The translations under genes were made by a program, and so were the position numbers. From contig NZ_JNCA01000006.1 in NCBI RefSeq assembly GCF_000695795.1, forward strand, positions 124,001 to 188,000: a DNA stretch of 64,000 bases, given 5' to 3'. The notes below the pieces were generated by a model, which saw only the letters and a list, made by a program, of their open reading frames with translations, made no database searches and was not told where the DNA came from. Positions within the stretch are counted from its first letter, which is position 1. Each line of letters begins with the position of its first letter. This document shows positions 8,481-48,131 of the stretch, one piece after another. Origin of the DNA: Flavobacterium seoulense. GTDB taxonomy: Bacteria; Bacteroidota; Bacteroidia; Flavobacteriales; Flavobacteriaceae.

Positions 8481-8498
8481 GGGTTGTGTTTTTTTAGA

Positions 8499-8534
8499 TT
8501 AGAAAATAGAATAGAGAGAATAGAACATAGATTT
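8499..8534 (+). repeat. AGAATAGAG-family repeat, left of the IVP gene
   Basis: A 36-bp purine-rich word lies just downstream of the IVP gene, between it and the dehydrogenase start. Bases 8509-8525 are inverted at 8904-8920 with one mismatch out of 17. The whole 36-bp block also recurs on the opposite strand at 10211-10176 with three mismatches. It belongs to the family that also covers 8889-8930 and 10130-10213. Confidence 0.8.
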
Positions 8535-8888
8535 TTACTTAAGATTGTTTTGGAATGACATCGTCATTCTTTGAAATTCTTCTATTTTAGTTTCTAATAG
8601 GTTAAAAGTTGTTTCGTTAATATATTTTCTATGTTTTGAAATTAAAAGTTGTGTATTTAATTCGAATGAGGAGCCCAGAGTAATATCAATAAAATGACTG
8701 AATGATTTATCTGTTCTAGCTGATCCTTCTGCAATGTTGCTAGGTATTGAAATGGAGCATCTGCTAATCTGTGAACTTAAATCATATCTTTCATGTTTAG
8801 GGAATTCTAATAAAATATCAGAAATGTCGTTGGCAATTTCTATTCCTAGCTGCCAAATTTTCAAATTCTTATAATTATGTCTAGTCAT
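8535..8888 (-). CDS. Four-helix-bundle protein (23S rRNA intervening-sequence/IVP family)
   Basis: This 117-residue protein matches the S23/IVP four-helix-bundle family: MTRHNYKNLKIWQLGIEIAN opening, the conserved RYDLSSQISRCSISIPSNIAEG, and SFELNTQLLISKH. Relatives are found in 23S rRNA intervening sequences, as accessory proteins of diversity-generating retroelements, and as free genes scattered in Bacteroidota genomes. The molecular function is unknown; oligomeric nucleic-acid binding has been proposed for relatives. Here it sits between thiolase and acyl-CoA dehydrogenase genes in the same direction. Near-perfect 17-bp inverted repeats bracket it, which suggests it arrived as a unit rather than as part of beta-oxidation. 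Confidence 0.88.
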   Translation of the reverse strand: MTRHNYKNLKIWQLGIEIANDISDILLEFPKHERYDLSSQISRCSISIPSNIAEGSARTDKSFSHFIDITLGSSFELNTQLLISKHRKYINETTFNLLETKIEEFQRMTMSFQNNLK

Positions 8889-10112: not shown

Positions 10113-10129
10113 ATTTTTTTTATTTTTAA

Positions 10130-10213
10130 GAGTAGAGAATATAGAGTATAGAAAATAGACTTTAAACGTTTTCTGAAATCTATGTTCTATTCTCTTTGCT
10201 CTATTTTCTAATT
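10130..10213. repeat. AGAATAGAG-family inverted repeat between the FadN-like and fadA genes
   Basis: Two purine/pyrimidine-rich arms (about 10130-10165 and 10172-10213) are imperfectly complementary and could form a long hairpin. The second arm, read on the minus strand, matches 8499-8534 at 33 of 36 bases. It runs into the stop codon of the FadN-like gene: the TAG at 10210-10208 is part of the repeat word TTAGAAAATAGA. Confidence 0.75.
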
Positions 10214-21149: not shown

Positions 21150-21171
21150 GAATAACAAATTCTAAATTTTT

Positions 21172-21213
21172 AAAAGTCGAAAGTCGAAAACATAATTTTG
21201 ACTTTCGACTTTT
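21172..21213 (+). terminator. glyA terminator
   Basis: The perfect 14-bp stem AAAAGTCGAAAGTC / GACTTTCGACTTTT with a 14-base loop is followed by TGTTTTT, 22 bp after the glyA stop. Confidence 0.85.
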
Positions 21214-21240
21214 GTTTTTATAACTCATAACCTTTTAGAC

Positions 21241-21834
21241 ATGGGCGTATTACGATTACAATTGCCAACTGACCCAAGATGGGTAAATATTGTAGAGAAA
21301 AACATAGAGGAAATTCTGACTGATCATGCCTGGTGCGAACAAAAAGCGGCTACGAATGCTATTACGATTATTACCAATAATTCAGAGCATCAGGATTTGG
21401 TTGTAGATTTATTGGCTTTAGCCAAAGAAGAAATTGATCATTTCGAGCAAGTGCATAACATCATCATCAAACGCGGATTAAAATTAGGTCGCGAACGAAA
21501 AGACGATTATGTAAACGAATTGTACCAATACATGAAAAGAAGTGCCGATGGAAGCCGCGTTTCAGGTTTGGTAGAAAGATTATTGTTTTCGGCTATGATT
21601 GAAGCCAGAAGTTGCGAACGTTTCAAAGTGCTTTCTGAGAATATTCAGGACGAAGAATTGGCAGTTTTTTACAGAGAATTGATGGAAAGCGAAGCGGGGC
21701 ATTACACTACCTTTATTACCTATGCCCGAAAATATGGCGAAGGAATTGATGTAGAAAAGCGTTGGAGAGAATGGCTGGAATTTGAAGAATCAATTATTTC
21801 TAATTACGGAAAAGGCGAAACCATTCACGGTTAA
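21241..21834 (+). CDS. miaE: tRNA-(ms2io6A)-hydroxylase, diiron MiaE family
   Basis: This 197-residue ferritin-like protein hydroxylates the isopentenyl side chain of 2-methylthio-N6-isopentenyladenosine at position 37 of tRNA. Diiron ligands appear as paired E and ExxH motifs: EEIDHFEQVH in the first half and MESEAGHYTTF in the second, with EARSCERF between. The length matches the family. It begins 27 bp after the glyA terminator and may have its own promoter. Family assignment is firm; activity is by homology. Confidence 0.9.
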   Translation: MGVLRLQLPTDPRWVNIVEKNIEEILTDHAWCEQKAATNAITIITNNSEHQDLVVDLLALAKEEIDHFEQVHNIIIKRGLKLGRERKDDYVNELYQYMKRSADGSRVSGLVERLLFSAMIEARSCERFKVLSENIQDEELAVFYRELMESEAGHYTTFITYARKYGEGIDVEKRWREWLEFEESIISNYGKGETIHG

Positions 21835-41620: not shown

Positions 41621-42136
41621 ATGATCTATTTCATAACAGGAGGAGAGCGTTCAGGAAAAAGCAGTTATGCTGAGAATATTGCCAAGGAATTATCGGCGAG
41701 ACCTATGTATGTGGCTACGGCGCGAAAATGGGATGATGATTTTCAGAAACGAATTGTACGCCATCAAAGAGACAGAGATGAACGTTGGATAAACATTGAA
41801 AAAGAAAAATTTTTAAGCGAAATTGATTTTTCTGGTCAGGTTGCTGTTATTGATTGCGTAACTTTATGGTTGACTAATTTTTTTGTTGATACGCAGAATG
41901 ATGTAGAATTGAGTTTGATTCAGGCTAAAGCCGAATTCGAAAAAATAATAAACCAACCTAATGTGATCATCATTATTATTTCAAACGAAATAGGAATGGG
42001 TGTTCATGCAGATACGCATATTGGTCGAAAGTTTACTGAATTACAAGGCTGGATGAACCAATATTTAGCCAAAAAAGCAGACAAAGTCGTGCTGATGGTT
42101 TCTGGAATTCCGGTTGTAATAAAAGAAGGTTTATGA
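41621..42136 (+). CDS. cobU: Adenosylcobinamide kinase / adenosylcobinamide-phosphate guanylyltransferase
   Basis: This 171-residue bifunctional enzyme phosphorylates adenosylcobinamide and then adds GMP to form adenosylcobinamide-GDP. The P-loop is G7-G-E-R-S-G-K-S14. The guanylylated histidine region is RIVRHQRDRDERW, and IISNEIGMGVHADT is conserved. The length equals the family. It overlaps the next gene by four bases (ATGA), so the two are translationally coupled. Confidence 0.95.
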   Translation: MIYFITGGERSGKSSYAENIAKELSARPMYVATARKWDDDFQKRIVRHQRDRDERWINIEKEKFLSEIDFSGQVAVIDCVTLWLTNFFVDTQNDVELSLIQAKAEFEKIINQPNVIIIIISNEIGMGVHADTHIGRKFTELQGWMNQYLAKKADKVVLMVSGIPVVIKEGL

Positions 42137-42879: not shown

Positions 42880-44562
42880 ATGAGTTATTTAGACGAAATT
42901 ATAAAGTCACGTAGAGACACCCGTCATTTTACAAATGAGGAAGTTCCTGATGCCGTAATCGAAAAAGCATTAGAAGCTGGACATTGGGCGCCTTCTGTGG
43001 GTTTGACTGAAGCGACCAGATATTATTTGATTAAATCGGCTGAGGTAAAAAAAGCTGTGAAAAAATTGTTTCTGGATTATGATGAAAAAGCAGCTCAGAG
43101 TACTGATAACGAATCACAGAAAGTACAATATCAGGCTTTAAAACTAGAAGCGATTGAAGATGCTCCCTTAGGACTGGTAATCGCTTATGATCGTTCGGTA
43201 TTGAATCATTTTACCATAGGTACTGTTGGAAGTAATGAGGCAATTAAAAACAGTGCGGTTTGTGCCGCTCAAAATATTTGGCTTTCGCTTACAGAACAAG
43301 GCTATTCGATGGGTTGGGTTTCGATTTTGAATTATTATCAGTTCAAGAAAATATTAGGCTTACCAGAGCATATTGAGCCTCTGGGATATTTTTGCGTAGG
43401 CAAACCCGCTACTGATTATGGAAAACAACCGATGCTACAACAATTGAATTGGAAAAAGAAATCGGAAGCTCCGATAGTGACAGAAATCAATCATTTAATT
43501 ATAGATGAAGATAAAAAAGTAGCGGTTTCTTCAAAGCATAAAGATGTTGCCACTACTTTGAAAAAGGAGTTAGAAGATAAGATTAATCAAAAAACAAAAC
43601 CAATAGGTTCATTAGGTGTTTTAGAAAAAATAGCCCAACAAATTGGAGAAGTTTTTCAAACTTTAGAACCCAAAATAAAGAACCCAAATATTATAGTTTT
43701 TGCTGCCGATCATGGTATAGCACAACATGGTGTGAGCGCTTATCCGCAGGATGTAACACGCCAAATGGTTAGTAATTTTTTAGAAGGTGGAGCGGCAATT
43801 AATGTGTTTTGTAAGCAAAACGATATTACGCTATCTATTGTTGATGCTGGTGTAAATTATGATTTTCCGTCTAATGTAAAATTGATTTCGAATAAGATTG
43901 ATAAAGGGACACATTCGTTTTTGAGTACTTCTGCTATGAGCAAAACACAAATGCAGTTATGCTTTTCTAAAGGAGCCGAAATGGTTACTTCAATAGCAAA
44001 ACAAGGTTGTAATTGCGTTGGTTTTGGCGAAATGGGAATTGGAAACACAGCCACAGCCTCGGTTTTAATGAGTGTACTTTGTAATTTTTCTATCGAAGAT
44101 TGTGTGGGTAAAGGAACTGGGGTAGATGATGAAAAACTACAATTTAAGATTGCTATTTTAAGAAAAGCGATTGAAAATTACGAGGGCGAAAAGGATTTTG
44201 ATAGTTATTTGGCTCATTTTGGAGGATTTGAAATTTTGCAAATGGCAGGAGGAATGCTTGAAGCTTATCAACAAAATATGATTTTTCTGGTAGACGGATT
44301 TATTTGCAGTGTTGCTTTTTTAATAGCATTCAAAAAGAATCCTGAAATATTAAAAAATGCCATTTTCAGCCATCAATCGGCTGAGAAAGCACATAAAAAA
44401 CTGTTGGATTATTTAGATGTTTCGGCGGTTTTACAATTAGATTTGCGTTTGGGTGAAGGAACAGGTTGTGCTTTGGTTTTTCCAATAATAACATCGGCAG
44501 TGGCTTTTTTAAATGAAATGGCTAGTTTTGAAAGTGCTGGTGTGAGTGAAAATAAAAGTTAG
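42880..44562 (+). CDS. bluB-cobT: Fused 5,6-dimethylbenzimidazole synthase (BluB) - CobT phosphoribosyltransferase
   Basis: This is a 560-residue fusion. Residues about 1-205 are BluB, a flavin-destroying nitroreductase-fold enzyme that turns FMNH2 and oxygen into the lower ligand 5,6-dimethylbenzimidazole (SRRDTRHFTNEEVPD, GHWAPSVGLTEATRYYLI, MGWVSILNYYQFKKILGLPE). Residues about 215-560 are CobT, which activates that base with nicotinate mononucleotide (KPIGSLGVLEKIAQQIGEVF, FAADHGIAQHGVSAYPQDVT). The catalytic glutamate is E526 in RLGEGTGCALVFPI. Fusing the two steps should channel the base. The stop codon falls inside a direct repeat. BluB needs oxygen, implying an aerobic organism. Confidence 0.94.
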   Translation: MSYLDEIIKSRRDTRHFTNEEVPDAVIEKALEAGHWAPSVGLTEATRYYLIKSAEVKKAVKKLFLDYDEKAAQSTDNESQKVQYQALKLEAIEDAPLGLVIAYDRSVLNHFTIGTVGSNEAIKNSAVCAAQNIWLSLTEQGYSMGWVSILNYYQFKKILGLPEHIEPLGYFCVGKPATDYGKQPMLQQLNWKKKSEAPIVTEINHLIIDEDKKVAVSSKHKDVATTLKKELEDKINQKTKPIGSLGVLEKIAQQIGEVFQTLEPKIKNPNIIVFAADHGIAQHGVSAYPQDVTRQMVSNFLEGGAAINVFCKQNDITLSIVDAGVNYDFPSNVKLISNKIDKGTHSFLSTSAMSKTQMQLCFSKGAEMVTSIAKQGCNCVGFGEMGIGNTATASVLMSVLCNFSIEDCVGKGTGVDDEKLQFKIAILRKAIENYEGEKDFDSYLAHFGGFEILQMAGGMLEAYQQNMIFLVDGFICSVAFLIAFKKNPEILKNAIFSHQSAEKAHKKLLDYLDVSAVLQLDLRLGEGTGCALVFPIITSAVAFLNEMASFESAGVSENKS

Positions 44563-44591
44563 AAGTTAGAGGTGGGAAGTTAGAAGTTAGA
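44557..44591 (+). repeat. AGTTAGAAGTTAGA direct repeat at the end of bluB-cobT
   Basis: Two identical 14-bp words (44557-44570 and 44578-44591) are separated by GGTGGGA. The first supplies the TAG stop of bluB-cobT. The segment GTGGGAAGTTAGAA recurs inside the cobalamin riboswitch region at 46123-46136, and a shorter relative lies after the CWC gene (41545-41570). Confidence 0.75.
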
Positions 44592-44610: not shown

Positions 44611-45393
44611 ATGAAAAAAGAACTCCGTATATTTTTTACCGCATTGATGTTCTATACCCGGATTCCTTGCCCTAAAAACATCAATCATCATCCTGATTAT
44701 TTGAATAAAGCGTCAAGATATTTTCCAATAATTGGCTGGATTGTAGGAGGAATAAGTTTTATGATTTACTATTTAGCTTCTTTTGTTTTTTCGATAGAAA
44801 TAGCTGTTGTTCTTTCGATAATTGCTGGTATTCTAGTAACTGGTGCATTTCACGAAGATGGCTTTGCCGATGTCTGTGATGGTTTTGGCGGTGGTTGGAC
44901 TAAAGAGAAAATTCTTTTAATCATGAAAGATAGTGCAATCGGGGCATATGGTGCTATTGGCTTGGTTTTACTTTTTTTATTGAAATTTCAAATTCTGGTT
45001 CAATTAGTTGAAGATATAAATTCAATAACAGTTGGTTTTTTGTTATTTGTTGCTGCTCATGCTGTAAGCCGACTGGCTGCAATTTCTATTGTCTTTACCC
45101 ATCATTATTCAAGAGAAGATGCTAGTAGTAAAAGCAAACCAATTGCTCAAAATTACACATGGAGAGAAGTAGTTGGTGCTTTCTTTTTTGGTTTATTACC
45201 ATTATTGATTTTGTCTTATTTTCGATGGCAAATGCTAATTGTTGTAATTCCAGTTTTTCTCACCAGATTTTTTATGGCTAGTTATTTCCAAAAATGGATT
45301 GATGGTTATACGGGTGATTGTCTTGGTGCAACGCAGCAAGTGTGTGAAGTTGTTTTTTATCTGTCAAGTATTGCTTTATGGAAGTTTATTTAG
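44611..45393 (+). CDS. cobS: Adenosylcobinamide-GDP ribazoletransferase
   Basis: This 260-residue inner-membrane enzyme joins adenosylcobinamide-GDP to alpha-ribazole phosphate, forming cobalamin phosphate. It has six or so hydrophobic segments. Family text: LRIFFTALMFYTRIPCPKNI, the acidic metal-binding loop FHEDGFADVCDGFGGG, and DGYTGDCLGATQQVCEV near the C-terminus. The length is normal. It overlaps the next gene by 16 bases. Confidence 0.95.
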   Translation: MKKELRIFFTALMFYTRIPCPKNINHHPDYLNKASRYFPIIGWIVGGISFMIYYLASFVFSIEIAVVLSIIAGILVTGAFHEDGFADVCDGFGGGWTKEKILLIMKDSAIGAYGAIGLVLLFLLKFQILVQLVEDINSITVGFLLFVAAHAVSRLAAISIVFTHHYSREDASSKSKPIAQNYTWREVVGAFFFGLLPLLILSYFRWQMLIVVIPVFLTRFFMASYFQKWIDGYTGDCLGATQQVCEVVFYLSSIALWKFI

Positions 45394-45899
45394 TTCGGCA
45401 TACCGAAACTGTTTGTGAGAAAGGAATCTGTTACGGACAATCTGATGTAAGTTTAAAAGAATCCTTTTTAGAACAATTTGAATTGATAAAAAGTCAAATA
45501 CCTTCGGACGCTGTTGTTTTTTCGAGTCCGTTATCTCGTTGTACACTTTTAGCCAATTATTTGTCATCATCGGTTAGTATTGATTCGAGATTGATGGAAA
45601 TGAATTTTGGTGATTGGGAAATGAAAAAATGGGATGAAATTCCTGAAGTCGATTTTACTCCCTGGATGACTGATTTTGTAAATGTGGCTGTTCCTAACGG
45701 CGAATCTTTTATTACATTACACCATCGGGTAATTGATTTTTTAGCCACACTAGCTTCTGCAAATCATTCGAAAAAAATAGTAATTGTTACTCATGCCGGA
45801 GTAATCAGGAGTATTTTATGCCATCAATCCGGATTATCTTTAAAAGAAGCATTTCAAAATAAAGTCGATTTTGGAGATGTAATAAAAATAGAATTATAA
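45378..45899 (+). CDS. cobC: Alpha-ribazole phosphatase / histidine phosphatase (CobC-like)
   Basis: This 173-residue histidine phosphatase has its nucleophile at H8 in YLVRHTETVC and the second histidine in IVTHAGVIRSI. It should remove the phosphate from alpha-ribazole phosphate or cobalamin phosphate, completing lower-ligand assembly. The gene overlaps cobS by 16 bases and ends the cob run. The family also contains phosphoglycerate-mutase-like enzymes, so CobC is called from both motif and location. Confidence 0.9.
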   Translation: MEVYLVRHTETVCEKGICYGQSDVSLKESFLEQFELIKSQIPSDAVVFSSPLSRCTLLANYLSSSVSIDSRLMEMNFGDWEMKKWDEIPEVDFTPWMTDFVNVAVPNGESFITLHHRVIDFLATLASANHSKKIVIVTHAGVIRSILCHQSGLSLKEAFQNKVDFGDVIKIEL

Positions 45900-45969
45900 C
45901 TTCAGTTAAAAATGTTTATTTGTTTGATTTTTAGTTTTTTAAGTACTAAAAATCAAAAATGTATATAAA

Positions 45970-46002
45970 TTTGATTTTTAGCAGGATTAAGTTTTATCTT
46001 TG
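45970..46002 (+). promoter_or_regulatory. Promoter of the btuB-btuG unit
   Basis: TTTG (45970-45973), a 21-bp spacer and TATCTTTG (45995-46002) give a textbook Bacteroidota promoter. Transcription would start just before the cobalamin riboswitch. Confidence 0.75.
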
Positions 46003-46012
46003 CAAAAAATTA

Positions 46013-46268
46013 AGGTTGTGTTTTTATCAACACATTAAAAGGGAATCAGGTTTAAAACCTGAGCTGTACCCGCAACTGTAAGCTATAAAGCTTGTTGTAA
46101 ACTACAAAACCACTGTTTGAAAGTGGGAAGTTAGAAACTAGGGATTAGAAGTGAAATACTTCTTATTTCGTAGTTCAATTTCTAAATTCGAATGGGAAGG
46201 TAAACAACAAGACGCAAGCCAGGAGACCTGCCTTTATAAATTAATATCGAACTCTCGGGAAAAAGAGT
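46013..46268 (+). promoter_or_regulatory. Cobalamin riboswitch with an enlarged peripheral arm
   Basis: Core motifs are all present: GGGAATCAGGTTTAAAACCT (46041-46060), GAGCTGTACCCGCAACTGTAA just after, CCACTG at 46110-46115, TGGGAAGG at 46193-46200 and the B12-box GACGCAAGCCAGGAGACCTG at 46211-46230. CCACTG and TGGGAAGG are normally separated by a short stem-loop. Here that arm is about 75 bases and contains a repeat-like hairpin. The expression hairpin ACTCT / AGAGT (46251-46268) ends ten bases before the btuB ATG, where it can hide the ribosome-binding region. It should switch the uptake genes off when B12 is plentiful. Confidence 0.93.
46117..46190 (+). repeat. Repeat-like hairpin inserted in the riboswitch arm
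   Basis: Between TTTGAA (46116-46121) and TTCGAA (46187-46192), which pair as the base of the arm, lies an extra segment. It has internal pairing TTAGAA / TTCTAA, ACTA / TAGT and AGAAGT-GAAAT-ACTTCT (46146-46162). It opens with GTGGGAAGTTAGAA, identical to 44572-44585 after bluB-cobT. It looks like a member of the same intergenic repeat family lodged in a tolerant loop. Confidence 0.6.
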
Positions 46269-46277
46269 GTAGAAATT

Positions 46278-48131
46278 ATGACTTTAAGAATACGTTTTGC
46301 TTTTTCTCTTTTTTTGTTGTGCCAATTTATTTCGGCGCAGAATGATACTATTACCAAATTAAAGGAAGTAGTAGTTTCGGATGCCAATCTTAAAAAATAC
46401 TCCAATTCACAATCTGTTTTGAAATTAAATGATTCGATTATCAATAAGAATGAAGCTTTATTGACTGATTTATTGAATTTCAATTCGACAATATATTTCA
46501 AAGAGTATGGTCGCGGAATGCTCTCTACAGTTTCTTTCAGAGGGACAACTGCTTCACAAACTGCTGTAATTTGGAACGGAATTAATATTAATTCTCAAAT
46601 GAATGGAAGTACTGATTTTAATACCATTTCGGGTACCGATTACAATTCTGTTAGTGTAAAAGCGGGTGGAGGAAGTTTGATTTACGGAAGTGGAGCTATT
46701 GGAGGAACGGTTCATTTGAATAATGATTTGGCATTTTATAATCGTTTTGAAAATAGTTTAAAGTTAGATTATGGAAGTTTTAATACTATTGGAATTAATT
46801 ATAAGGCTAATATTTCTAATGAAAAATGGAGTACACAAATAGGATTTTCAAAAAACAGTTCTACAAACGATTATAAGTATTTAAACCAATATACCTGGAG
46901 AGGCGAACAACGCTGGAACCAGAATGGAGAATATGATGTTATCACTGTGAGCGCTAATTTAGGATATAAATTAGACGCTAAAAACACTTTAAGATTATAC
47001 ACTCAAACTTCTAATACGGACCGAAATACATCATTAATAGTAGAATCGGAAACAAAAAGTAAGTATGTAAATGGTTTTAATAGAAATTTATTAGAATATG
47101 ATGGTGATTTTGGAAGATTGAAAGCGAATTTCAAAACGGCTTATATTTTTGAAAATTACCAATATTTTGCGAATAAGGATTTAAATAATTACAGCTACGG
47201 AAAAACGGAAAGTTTGACAACCAAAGCTGATTTAGGATATTCTTTATTCAAATCAACTCAAATTAATGCCATTTTAGATTACAATAGAACAAAAGGTTTT
47301 GGAAGTGGTTTTGGGAATAATACCAGAGAAATTAGTTCAGCTTCATTTTTGGTTAAACAAGATTTCAATGAAGATTGGAAAAATGAGTTTGGTATTCGAA
47401 AAGAATTCACAGCGAATTATCAATCACCTGTTTTATTTTCTTTTGGTTCGTCCTGTCAACTGAGTGAATTCTATCAATTGAAACTGAATTTATCCCGAAA
47501 TTTTAGAATTCCAACTTTTAATGATTTGTATTGGGAAGAAGGTGGAAATAGGAATTTGAAACCTGAAAGTTCCTATCAGGCAGAAATAGGAAATGTTTTT
47601 ACTTTTAGAAATATTACACTAACGCAAACTTTCTATTACTTTAAAATAAAAGATATGTTGCAATGGGTTCCTGGAAATAACGGAATCTGGTCACCGCAAA
47701 ATACAAACAAAGTAGCCAGTTATGGAGCTGAAACCTTATTGAGTTGGAAAAAACAATTTGGAAAAAATATTTTTGCTGCCAATGCGACTTATGCTCATAC
47801 CATTTCTGAAAATGTAGTTACTAAAAAACAACTATTCTTTGTTCCATTTAACAAAGTAACCGCAGCAGTTTCTTATTCCAGAAATAGAATTTCGGCTAAT
47901 TATCAATTTTTATACAATGGCTTTGTTTATACACAAGAAGATAATGATCCTAAAAAAATTGTTCCGGCATATAATGTCTCTAACATAGCTATAAACTATG
48001 ATTTTAAATTATTATCCTCTTGTAAAGTAGGATTCCAGGTTTTAAATGTTTGGAATAAATTTTATCAAAGTTTAGAATACCGACCAATGCCCGGAAGAAA
48101 CTATAATATGTACTTAAACCTTAAATTTTAA
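46278..48131 (+). CDS. btuB: TonB-dependent outer-membrane receptor, BtuB-like
   Basis: This is a 617-residue TonB-dependent receptor. A signal peptide (MTLRIRFAFSLFLLCQFISA) is followed by a TonB-box-like LKEVVVSDANL, a plug domain (YFKEYGRGMLSTVSFRGTTA, WNGININSQMNGSTD, GSLIYGSGAIGGTVHLNND) and a 22-strand barrel ending in aromatic NYNMYLNLKF. BtuB is chosen because a cobalamin riboswitch precedes it and cobalamin genes flank it. A BtuG-like lipoprotein gene starts four bases after the stop. It carries corrinoid across the outer membrane. Confidence 0.9.
   Translation: MTLRIRFAFSLFLLCQFISAQNDTITKLKEVVVSDANLKKYSNSQSVLKLNDSIINKNEALLTDLLNFNSTIYFKEYGRGMLSTVSFRGTTASQTAVIWNGININSQMNGSTDFNTISGTDYNSVSVKAGGGSLIYGSGAIGGTVHLNNDLAFYNRFENSLKLDYGSFNTIGINYKANISNEKWSTQIGFSKNSSTNDYKYLNQYTWRGEQRWNQNGEYDVITVSANLGYKLDAKNTLRLYTQTSNTDRNTSLIVESETKSKYVNGFNRNLLEYDGDFGRLKANFKTAYIFENYQYFANKDLNNYSYGKTESLTTKADLGYSLFKSTQINAILDYNRTKGFGSGFGNNTREISSASFLVKQDFNEDWKNEFGIRKEFTANYQSPVLFSFGSSCQLSEFYQLKLNLSRNFRIPTFNDLYWEEGGNRNLKPESSYQAEIGNVFTFRNITLTQTFYYFKIKDMLQWVPGNNGIWSPQNTNKVASYGAETLLSWKKQFGKNIFAANATYAHTISENVVTKKQLFFVPFNKVTAAVSYSRNRISANYQFLYNGFVYTQEDNDPKKIVPAYNVSNIAINYDFKLLSSCKVGFQVLNVWNKFYQSLEYRPMPGRNYNMYLNLKF

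Follow-up and report, generated by a model that had tools for sequence, protein, structure and literature searches.

Heptad-repeat hairpins at two peripheral loops of cobalamin riboswitches in Flavobacterium

In the cobalamin riboswitches of the genus Flavobacterium, loop L4 and the tip of peripheral domain 2 (PD2) are sockets for hairpins built from degenerate 7-nt (heptad) repeats. The hairpin is replaceable as a unit, since close relatives carry it, do without it or carry one of another heptad class, while the sequences on either side are much more alike. The Flavobacterium genome analysed here (G000; 3.79 Mb in 56 contigs), and from which the window was taken (the whole stretch of 64,000 nt under analysis, C6:124001-188000), is also rich in intergenic heptad arrays. 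These observations probably reflect a modular heptad-hairpin cassette that passes from one riboswitch to another and is tolerated at either peripheral loop.

The riboswitch of the window lies in a cobalamin salvage cluster with the gene order cobU, a diphthamide-synthase-family gene, bluB-cobT, cobS, a cobC-like phosphatase gene, the riboswitch, a BtuB-type TonB receptor gene and the gene of a DUF5074 protein. The features of this locus are the following.

41621-42136: cobU
42880..44562, + strand: fused BluB-like nitroreductase and CobT (PF00881 and PF02277)
44549..44591, + strand: (AAGTTAG)n heptad array, overlapped by the end of bluB-cobT (TRF 44556-44591, period 7; period-7 scan)
44611..45393, + strand: cobS (PF02654)
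45378..45899, + strand: cobC-like phosphatase (PF00300)
45970-45973: putative -33 element TTTG, read by eye
45995..46002, + strand: putative promoter -7 element TATCTTTG, read by eye
45996..46249, + strand: cobalamin riboswitch aptamer, RF00174 (cmscan 100.6 bits, model 1-189)
46046..46062, + strand: short P4/L4 hairpin of 17 nt; this second socket is unoccupied in the window (parsed, L067)
46069..46072, + strand: CCCG in the L5 region that may form a kissing contact with L13 (read from the sequence; own assignment)
46110..46200, + strand: peripheral hairpin, P6 extension, PD2, closed by CCACTG / GGGAAGG (Rfam alignment)
46116..46193, + strand: heptad-repeat hairpin arm, 78 nt, class GAAGTTA (class A) (fold; alignment with 16 other class-A arms)
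46251..46268, + strand: P13 hairpin with CGGG loop, CTCTCGGGAAAAAGAG, ending 9 nt upstream of the ATG at 46278 (read from the sequence)
46278..48131, + strand: TonB-dependent receptor of BtuB type (BtuB by context), the controlled gene (PF00593 and PF07715)

The candidate -7 element at 45995-46002 is based on the TAnnTTTG promoter motif of Bacteroidetes. An inverted repeat at 45908-45972, of 28-nt arms with TTTGATTTTTAG, lies in the gap between cobC and the riboswitch and is possibly a terminator of the cob genes. The BluB-like nitroreductase and CobT (42880-44562) form a single open frame, whose stop codon lies within the heptad array at 44549-44591. The genes downstream of Flavobacterium riboswitches belong mostly to two TonB-receptor families, type I, which is that of the window, and type II. 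In G005 (F. flevense; L072/L152) the DNA resembles the cobS-cobC-riboswitch part of the window and the receptor after the riboswitch is of the other TonB family, as if a conserved leader had received a new gene to regulate.

The first-pass annotation of this DNA, made from its letters alone, had described an intact riboswitch core with an arm of about 75 bases, and both parts hold: the match covers the full-length RF00174 model at 100.6 bits, against a gathering score of 31.5, and the arm measures 78 nt. Helix names on the window sequence are our own assignment, made after PMC10907184 and the RF00174 structure line, and the RF00174 alignment of the window leaves 70 nt within the arm undisplayed. 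The btuB riboswitch is 254 nt long, compared with 190 and 185 nt for the other two RF00174 copies in G000, and the extra length is confined to this one 78-nt arm. Between the boxes CCACTG (46110-46115) and GGGAAGG (46194-46200), TTTGAA (46116-46121) stands opposite TTCGAA (46187-46192); this pairing and a hairpin inside the arm, both proposed from the letters, are confirmed by the coordinates and by the fold, in which the arm and its flanks are predicted to form one hairpin of -25.9 kcal/mol (z -3.7; 0 of 200 shuffles equally stable). According to the accessible text of PMC10907184, cobalamin riboswitches have two peripheral domains outside the junction, a conserved T-loop contact between L4 and L6, and a translational expression platform in which L5 and L13 form a kissing contact. 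In the window, the CGGG loop of P13 could pair with the CCCG of L5 (46069-46072) and form a possible expression platform of this kind.

RF00174 matches were found in 194 of 199 genomes. A core-box pattern with a spacer of 58-88 nt, which required CCACT and left longer arms and those closed by CCATTG/GAGAAGG uncounted, detected a long arm in 53 of 398 genomes of the genus; with a spacer of 27-57 nt it matched in 20 of the 398, and about three quarters of these are, by eye, a different short hairpin. A scan of GTDB species, which required CCACTGTT and a spacer of 56-86 nt and again left longer and CCATTG/GAGAAGG-closed arms uncounted, gave 73 named long-arm loci, 54 of them Flavobacterium-like and 19 from other bacteria (L165, labelled as a Rhizobium MAG, was grouped by sequence with Flavobacterium, and L129, from Balneolaceae, with the others). 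By half-arm autocorrelation, the best lag is 7 in 52/54 Flavobacterium-like arms and in 0/19 of the others, and period 7 reaches a shuffle p<=0.01 in 50/54 and 0/19, respectively. Mean identity at lag 7 in the Flavobacterium-like arms is 0.63, against 0.24-0.37 at other lags. The heptads differ by lineage, some examples being GAAGTTA, AGATTTT, GAATTTA and GGAATTA.

From the best-scoring matches listed and from the long-arm searches, 170 distinct riboswitches that match the box pattern were parsed. In this set, enriched for long arms, the PD2 arm measures 7-28 nt in 105 riboswitches and at least 55 nt in 61, so compared with most relatives in the set the long arm is expanded, as had been proposed, and not a length that all of them share. 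The heptad criterion was passed by 57 of the 61 long PD2 arms, the other four being below threshold or failing on the trimmed arm. All 57 are single predicted hairpins with a median of 30 bp (z<=-2 in 48; median z about -3). Seventeen class-A arms, that of the window and 16 others (three of 20, L113, L167 and L257, were left out of the alignment), have a mean column identity of 81% including the closing boxes, a similar length and a conserved loop. RNAalifold on these 17 arms did not recover the long helix and showed both-side changes in 1/16 pairs; the long helix is given by single-sequence folds but not by the consensus fold.

The second socket, L4, was considered long from 45 nt, and PD2 from 55 nt. 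An L4 insert of at least 45 nt is present in 36/170 riboswitches; the best lag is 7 in 34 of these 36, with a shuffle p<=0.01 in 31, the GTG...AAATC around the insert is kept in 26, and 33 are single predicted hairpins (z<=-2 in 30). Among 19 aligned L4 inserts (three of the 22 listed inserts of 84-93 nt, L114, L118 and L158, were left out), both-side changes occur in 9/26 predicted pairs. Across the 170 riboswitches, PD2 alone is filled in 36, L4 alone in 11, both in 25 and neither in 98. A coupling between L4 and PD2 inserts appears only as a trend, with 6.1 vs 0.6 pairs on the type II tree (median p 0.07) and 4.0 vs 1.5 pairs on the type I tree (p 0.375). Four relatives of the window, L196-L199, have a mid-length L4 of 41-42 nt, compared with the usual 17 nt and the 76-93 nt of most heptad inserts, which is possibly an early or decaying stage. 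In two cases, the PD2 arm of L179 and the 118-nt L4 insert of L130, a second and GC-richer element (TCCCGATAATTATCGGAA in L179) lies inside the heptad arm or insert, as if one repeat family had landed within another.

The sensing core remains recognisable around these hairpins. The closing element covaries in 170/170 riboswitches, as CCACTG with GGGAAGG in 151 and as CCATTG with GAGAAGG in 19; all 19 of the latter are short-armed, and all 57 heptad arms have the CCACTG/GGGAAGG form, partly because two of the searches required it. The hairpin with a CGGG loop was found in 168 of 169 readable riboswitches, namely in 98/98 without a long insert and in 70/72 with one (L264 is without it and one is cut off). 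As the expression platform is retained, "natural experiment in aptamer expansion", the wording of the first-pass annotation, is a fair description. The riboswitch of the window is probably an ordinary btuB cobalamin riboswitch, in which one peripheral loop is filled by a long degenerate 7-nt-repeat hairpin, and B12 sensing presumably continues, since both core boxes and platform are present. By analogy with known cobalamin riboswitches, B12 binding would stabilise the L5-L13 kissing loop near the btuB start and thus block translation, and the arm would point outwards, being tolerated and at most stabilising the domain.

The same kind of repeat is found outside the riboswitch. The 14-mer GTGGGAAGTTAGAA occurs in the arm (46123-46136) and at 44572-44585, and the identity to the repeat after bluB-cobT, 1.5 kb upstream, had been taken as a hint of a mobile or recombining intergenic repeat. 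The identity itself stands: with up to two mismatches the window has only these two places, which are both exact matches, while shuffles average 0.43 (6/100 shuffles reach two copies within two mismatches), and the whole of G000 has three exact copies, compared with none of the reversed control. Chance does not account for the match. The 14-mer is a word of the heptad repeat, and its sharing is therefore no evidence for copying between the two places.

As the annotation had also held, the repeat is an intergenic one, and arrays of the class of the arm are dispersed through the intergenic DNA of G000. A fuzzy heptad pattern gives 57 matches in this genome and 4 for its reversed control. Periods were scanned in 464 kb of G000, comprising the window and twenty 20-kb stretches, with 88.8% scored as coding; a stricter scan yielded few arrays, and the looser one was used for the reported counts. 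At a threshold of 0.75, the period is 7 in 9/10 intergenic arrays with periods of 5 to 13; at 0.70 there are 14 arrays of period 7 and at most 4 of every other period, and at 0.65 there are 21, the others reaching at most 18 (period 12). Period 12 is foremost in the coding DNA of the 464 kb. Several unit families are found side by side in G000, such as GAAGTTA, GTTATGG, AGAATAG and AAATTCT. Some genomic heptad arrays are predicted to form strong hairpins (L320:765, z -9.2; L332:8705, z -5.7), and z<=-2 was obtained in 10/21 arrays vs 3/60 random places. Compared with matched intergenic places, the proportions are 10/21 vs 24/80 at z<=-2 and 9/21 vs 17/80 at z<=-3, so a special hairpin status of the genomic arrays is not established. 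The window has three further period-7 stretches: AAAGTCG units at 21155-21260 with a strong predicted hairpin (z -3.6), 8496-8660 with an unremarkable fold (z -0.8), and 10129-10204, seen in one repeat search only.

The class of the arm follows the heptad content of its genome. The 53 long-arm genomes were searched for exact 16-mers of four heptad classes, the class of each arm being taken from 80-letter arm matches; hits in arms were removed where they were among the matches listed, as well as four by eye (two in G240, one each in G311 and G285), with the outcome unchanged. Mean counts outside the arm in own-class vs other genomes, uncorrected for kinship, are 12.6 vs 2.7 for class A, 10.0 vs 2.3 for B, 7.9 vs 0.71 for C and 2.4 vs 0.21 for D, with one-sided Mann-Whitney p values, likewise uncorrected, of 6e-4, 3e-3, 5e-6 and 2e-4, respectively. 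Over the 53 genomes, an association as strong was reached in 0/20,000 permutations, again without correction for kinship. The reversed control is invalid for class B because the reversed pattern is a rotation of the same repeat. Four of the 53 genomes have no class, 9 of the 49 classed ones have no own-class 16-mer outside the arm, and G204 and G326 have class-A arms, yet more class-B arrays.

The hairpins change often along the history of the receptors. On quick unrooted maximum-likelihood trees, PD2 switches its length state (long or short) a minimum of 12 times in type I (85 rows) and 22 times in type II (69 rows), and L4 changes at least 8 and at least 16 times, respectively; as the trees are unrooted, gains and losses are not separated. 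Receptors shorter than 240 residues or identical were left out of the trees, intermediate arms were left out of the PD2 count, and riboswitches with long arms or good scores are over-represented in the sample. The replacement of one heptad hairpin by another can be seen in L138 (F. pokkalii) and L144 (F. daejeonense), in which the receptors are 97%, the left sides 92% and the right sides 99% identical, while the arms are 54% identical and of different heptad classes. A similar discordance is found in the window. Compared with its relative L073, identities (over the longer length, with L4 included in the left side) are.86 on the left,.13 in the arm,.96 on the right and.82 in the receptor; compared with L255, of type II, they are.55,.85,.82 and.34. 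On these identities, the window riboswitch is a mosaic, with an arm like those of riboswitches of the other receptor family and flanks like those of its own relatives. The local alignment score of the arm is 96 to both L255 and L128 and at most 34 anywhere in 515 kb (14%) of its own genome. As the arm matches the riboswitch arms of other species far better than anything in these 515 kb, an origin by copying from the repeat at bluB-cobT is rejected.

Exchange of whole cassettes between riboswitches is the reading that these patterns favour. Homologous recombination would be the main route of replacement, acting between riboswitches from different strains or from different loci (no junction was observed), with the conserved core boxes on either side of the arm providing the homology, and new hairpins may arise by slippage together with fold-back copying of heptads. 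A different account, in which slippage and hairpin-templated copying lengthen a short hairpin in place and independently in each lineage, is unlikely. Slippage has been proposed for bacterial heptamers in the accessible text of PMC4692102, G000 contains several kinds of heptad, and the L4 inserts of L138 and L144 differ by a 14-nt gap, equal to two heptads, all of which agrees with growth in place. Against it, arms of the same class agree in length, in loop and in details outside the heptads even when they come from distant species or from the two receptor families; over aligned columns, the arms of L177 and L114 are 93% identical despite receptors of 22% identity, and those of L133 and L128 are 91% identical with receptors of 21%. 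Moreover, only 4/170 PD2 arms measure 29-54 nt and the long ones cluster at 67-85 nt, although many of these came from searches limited to 56-88 nt.

A transposition event, in which a MITE- or REP-like element of this genome jumped into the loop, is improbable, even if G000 holds many heptad arrays (57 matches vs 4 in the reversed control), some of them hairpins, and the class of the arm tracks that of the genome. Eight riboswitch pairs were aligned, six of which combine a long and a short PD2 arm (L134/L230, L141/L218, L164/L223, L182/L222, L152/L252 and L204/L177). In all six, the short partner shows a different short hairpin in the position of the arm and not the empty site expected of a MITE or REP, and inspection by eye revealed no target duplication. 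In the first five pairs (four from one clade), the long partner has a C-G closing pair and the short one a U-A pair with a GC-rich hairpin, whereas in L204/L177 the closing C-G is present in both partners despite the difference in the arm. Other riboswitches also match the window arm far better than the 515 kb of its own genome do. On the six pairs, a classic insertion with target duplication is rejected, and the idea of a mobile or recombining repeat tolerated in a loop is retained for the turnover of arms between close relatives, but not for insertion, of which the six pairs bear no signs. Finally, ancient vertical inheritance from a long-armed ancestor with many losses, the hairpin being selected for RNA stability or folding, for example, agrees with the similar length and conserved loop of the 17 class-A arms, the median z of about -3 and the weak co-occurrence of L4 and PD2 inserts, but is very unlikely given the class swap in L138/L144, the mosaic of arm and flanks, and the 32-row clade of the window, with 30 short arms and two long ones that differ in class.

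It is conceivable, though tentative, that these riboswitches are two-socket modular RNAs, in which interchangeable heptad cassettes move horizontally and independently of the gene and the rest of the aptamer, and may persist as selfish or recombination-promoting hairpins and not for regulation. Dozens of natural riboswitches with strongly differing peripheral hairpins are now available, including near-isogenic pairs of short, heptad and other-class forms. The extent to which riboswitches tolerate peripheral expansion, with L4 taking part in a conserved T-loop contact (PMC10907184, accessible text), thus becomes testable, as does the spread of short tandem-repeat hairpins in bacterial genomes. 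Given their known ends and conserved flanks, riboswitches are a clean reporter of an exchange that is hard to trace in plain intergenic DNA.

In the case of other structured RNAs, RF00010 matches were found in 71/75 genomes, and 50 RNase P RNA loci were scanned for period 7 in 28-nt windows. All 30 loci trimmed to the RNA are below the shuffle maximum. Of the 20 loci that include flanks, two are above it (L309, 0.71 vs 0.62; L311, 0.67 vs 0.62) and three are level with it (L295, L300 and L313). Judged by eye, the 28-nt window of L295 falls on a palindromic hairpin and those of the other four fall in terminators or flanking DNA. The RNase P RNA of these 50 Flavobacterium loci thus contains no clear heptad array. 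One Flavo-1 RNA (RF01705; L329:16391-16514, - strand) extends about 48 nt beyond the model, with an insert that by eye is not heptad-like and a fold no better than shuffles. A general invasion of structured RNAs by heptads is thus unsupported by the 50 RNase P RNA loci and this one Flavo-1 RNA.

The repeat units of STRR sequences are 7 nt long. Their occurrence in the RNase P RNA of heterocyst-forming cyanobacteria was reportedly described by Vioque in 1997 (reference list of PMC2858038). The riboswitch arms resemble them in that short tandem repeats lie inside the gene of a structured RNA, and they show 7-nt periodicity, strands predicted to pair into one hairpin, and the same repeat dispersed through the genome; on the other hand, the host RNA here is a riboswitch, and the RNase P RNA of Flavobacterium has no clear heptad array. 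The closest precedent is the P6b element of the Nostoc tRNA-Leu intron, in which, as given in the accessible text of PMC3488679, degenerate heptanucleotide repeats of two classes pair into a hairpin and the length varies via copy number and indels. Both are heptanucleotide hairpins in a structured RNA, but the Nostoc case concerns Cyanobacteria, an intron and one stem-loop; the likeness is one of description, and the accessible part of PMC3488679 has no comparison with genome-wide arrays. Intergenic 7-nt tandem arrays for which slippage or transfer was proposed include the heptamers of Xanthomonas and Nostoc (PMC4692102) and the TAACTGA repeats of Beggiatoaceae, Cyanobacteria and five Bacteroidetes (PMC4679880); their units differ from those of Flavobacterium, and the accessible text of the two papers describes no location in a riboswitch. 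In the accessible parts of three further sources, intergenic inverted repeats are over-represented (PMC4060949), heptamer-derived bacterial satellites are treated in "Satellites in the prokaryote world", with Flavobacterium psychrophilum under another family (PMC6749651), and, in a table of a REP survey seen without its column heads, the predicted REPs of two Flavobacterium genomes run into the thousands (PMC12306157). In the open-access literature, as far as accessible, no description of heptad hairpins in a riboswitch was found. In relation to the known cobalamin riboswitch, RF00174, the window riboswitch shares the full-length match, the core boxes and the P13/L13 platform, and the Flavobacterium riboswitches often differ from it in carrying long heptad hairpins at L4, at PD2 or at both.
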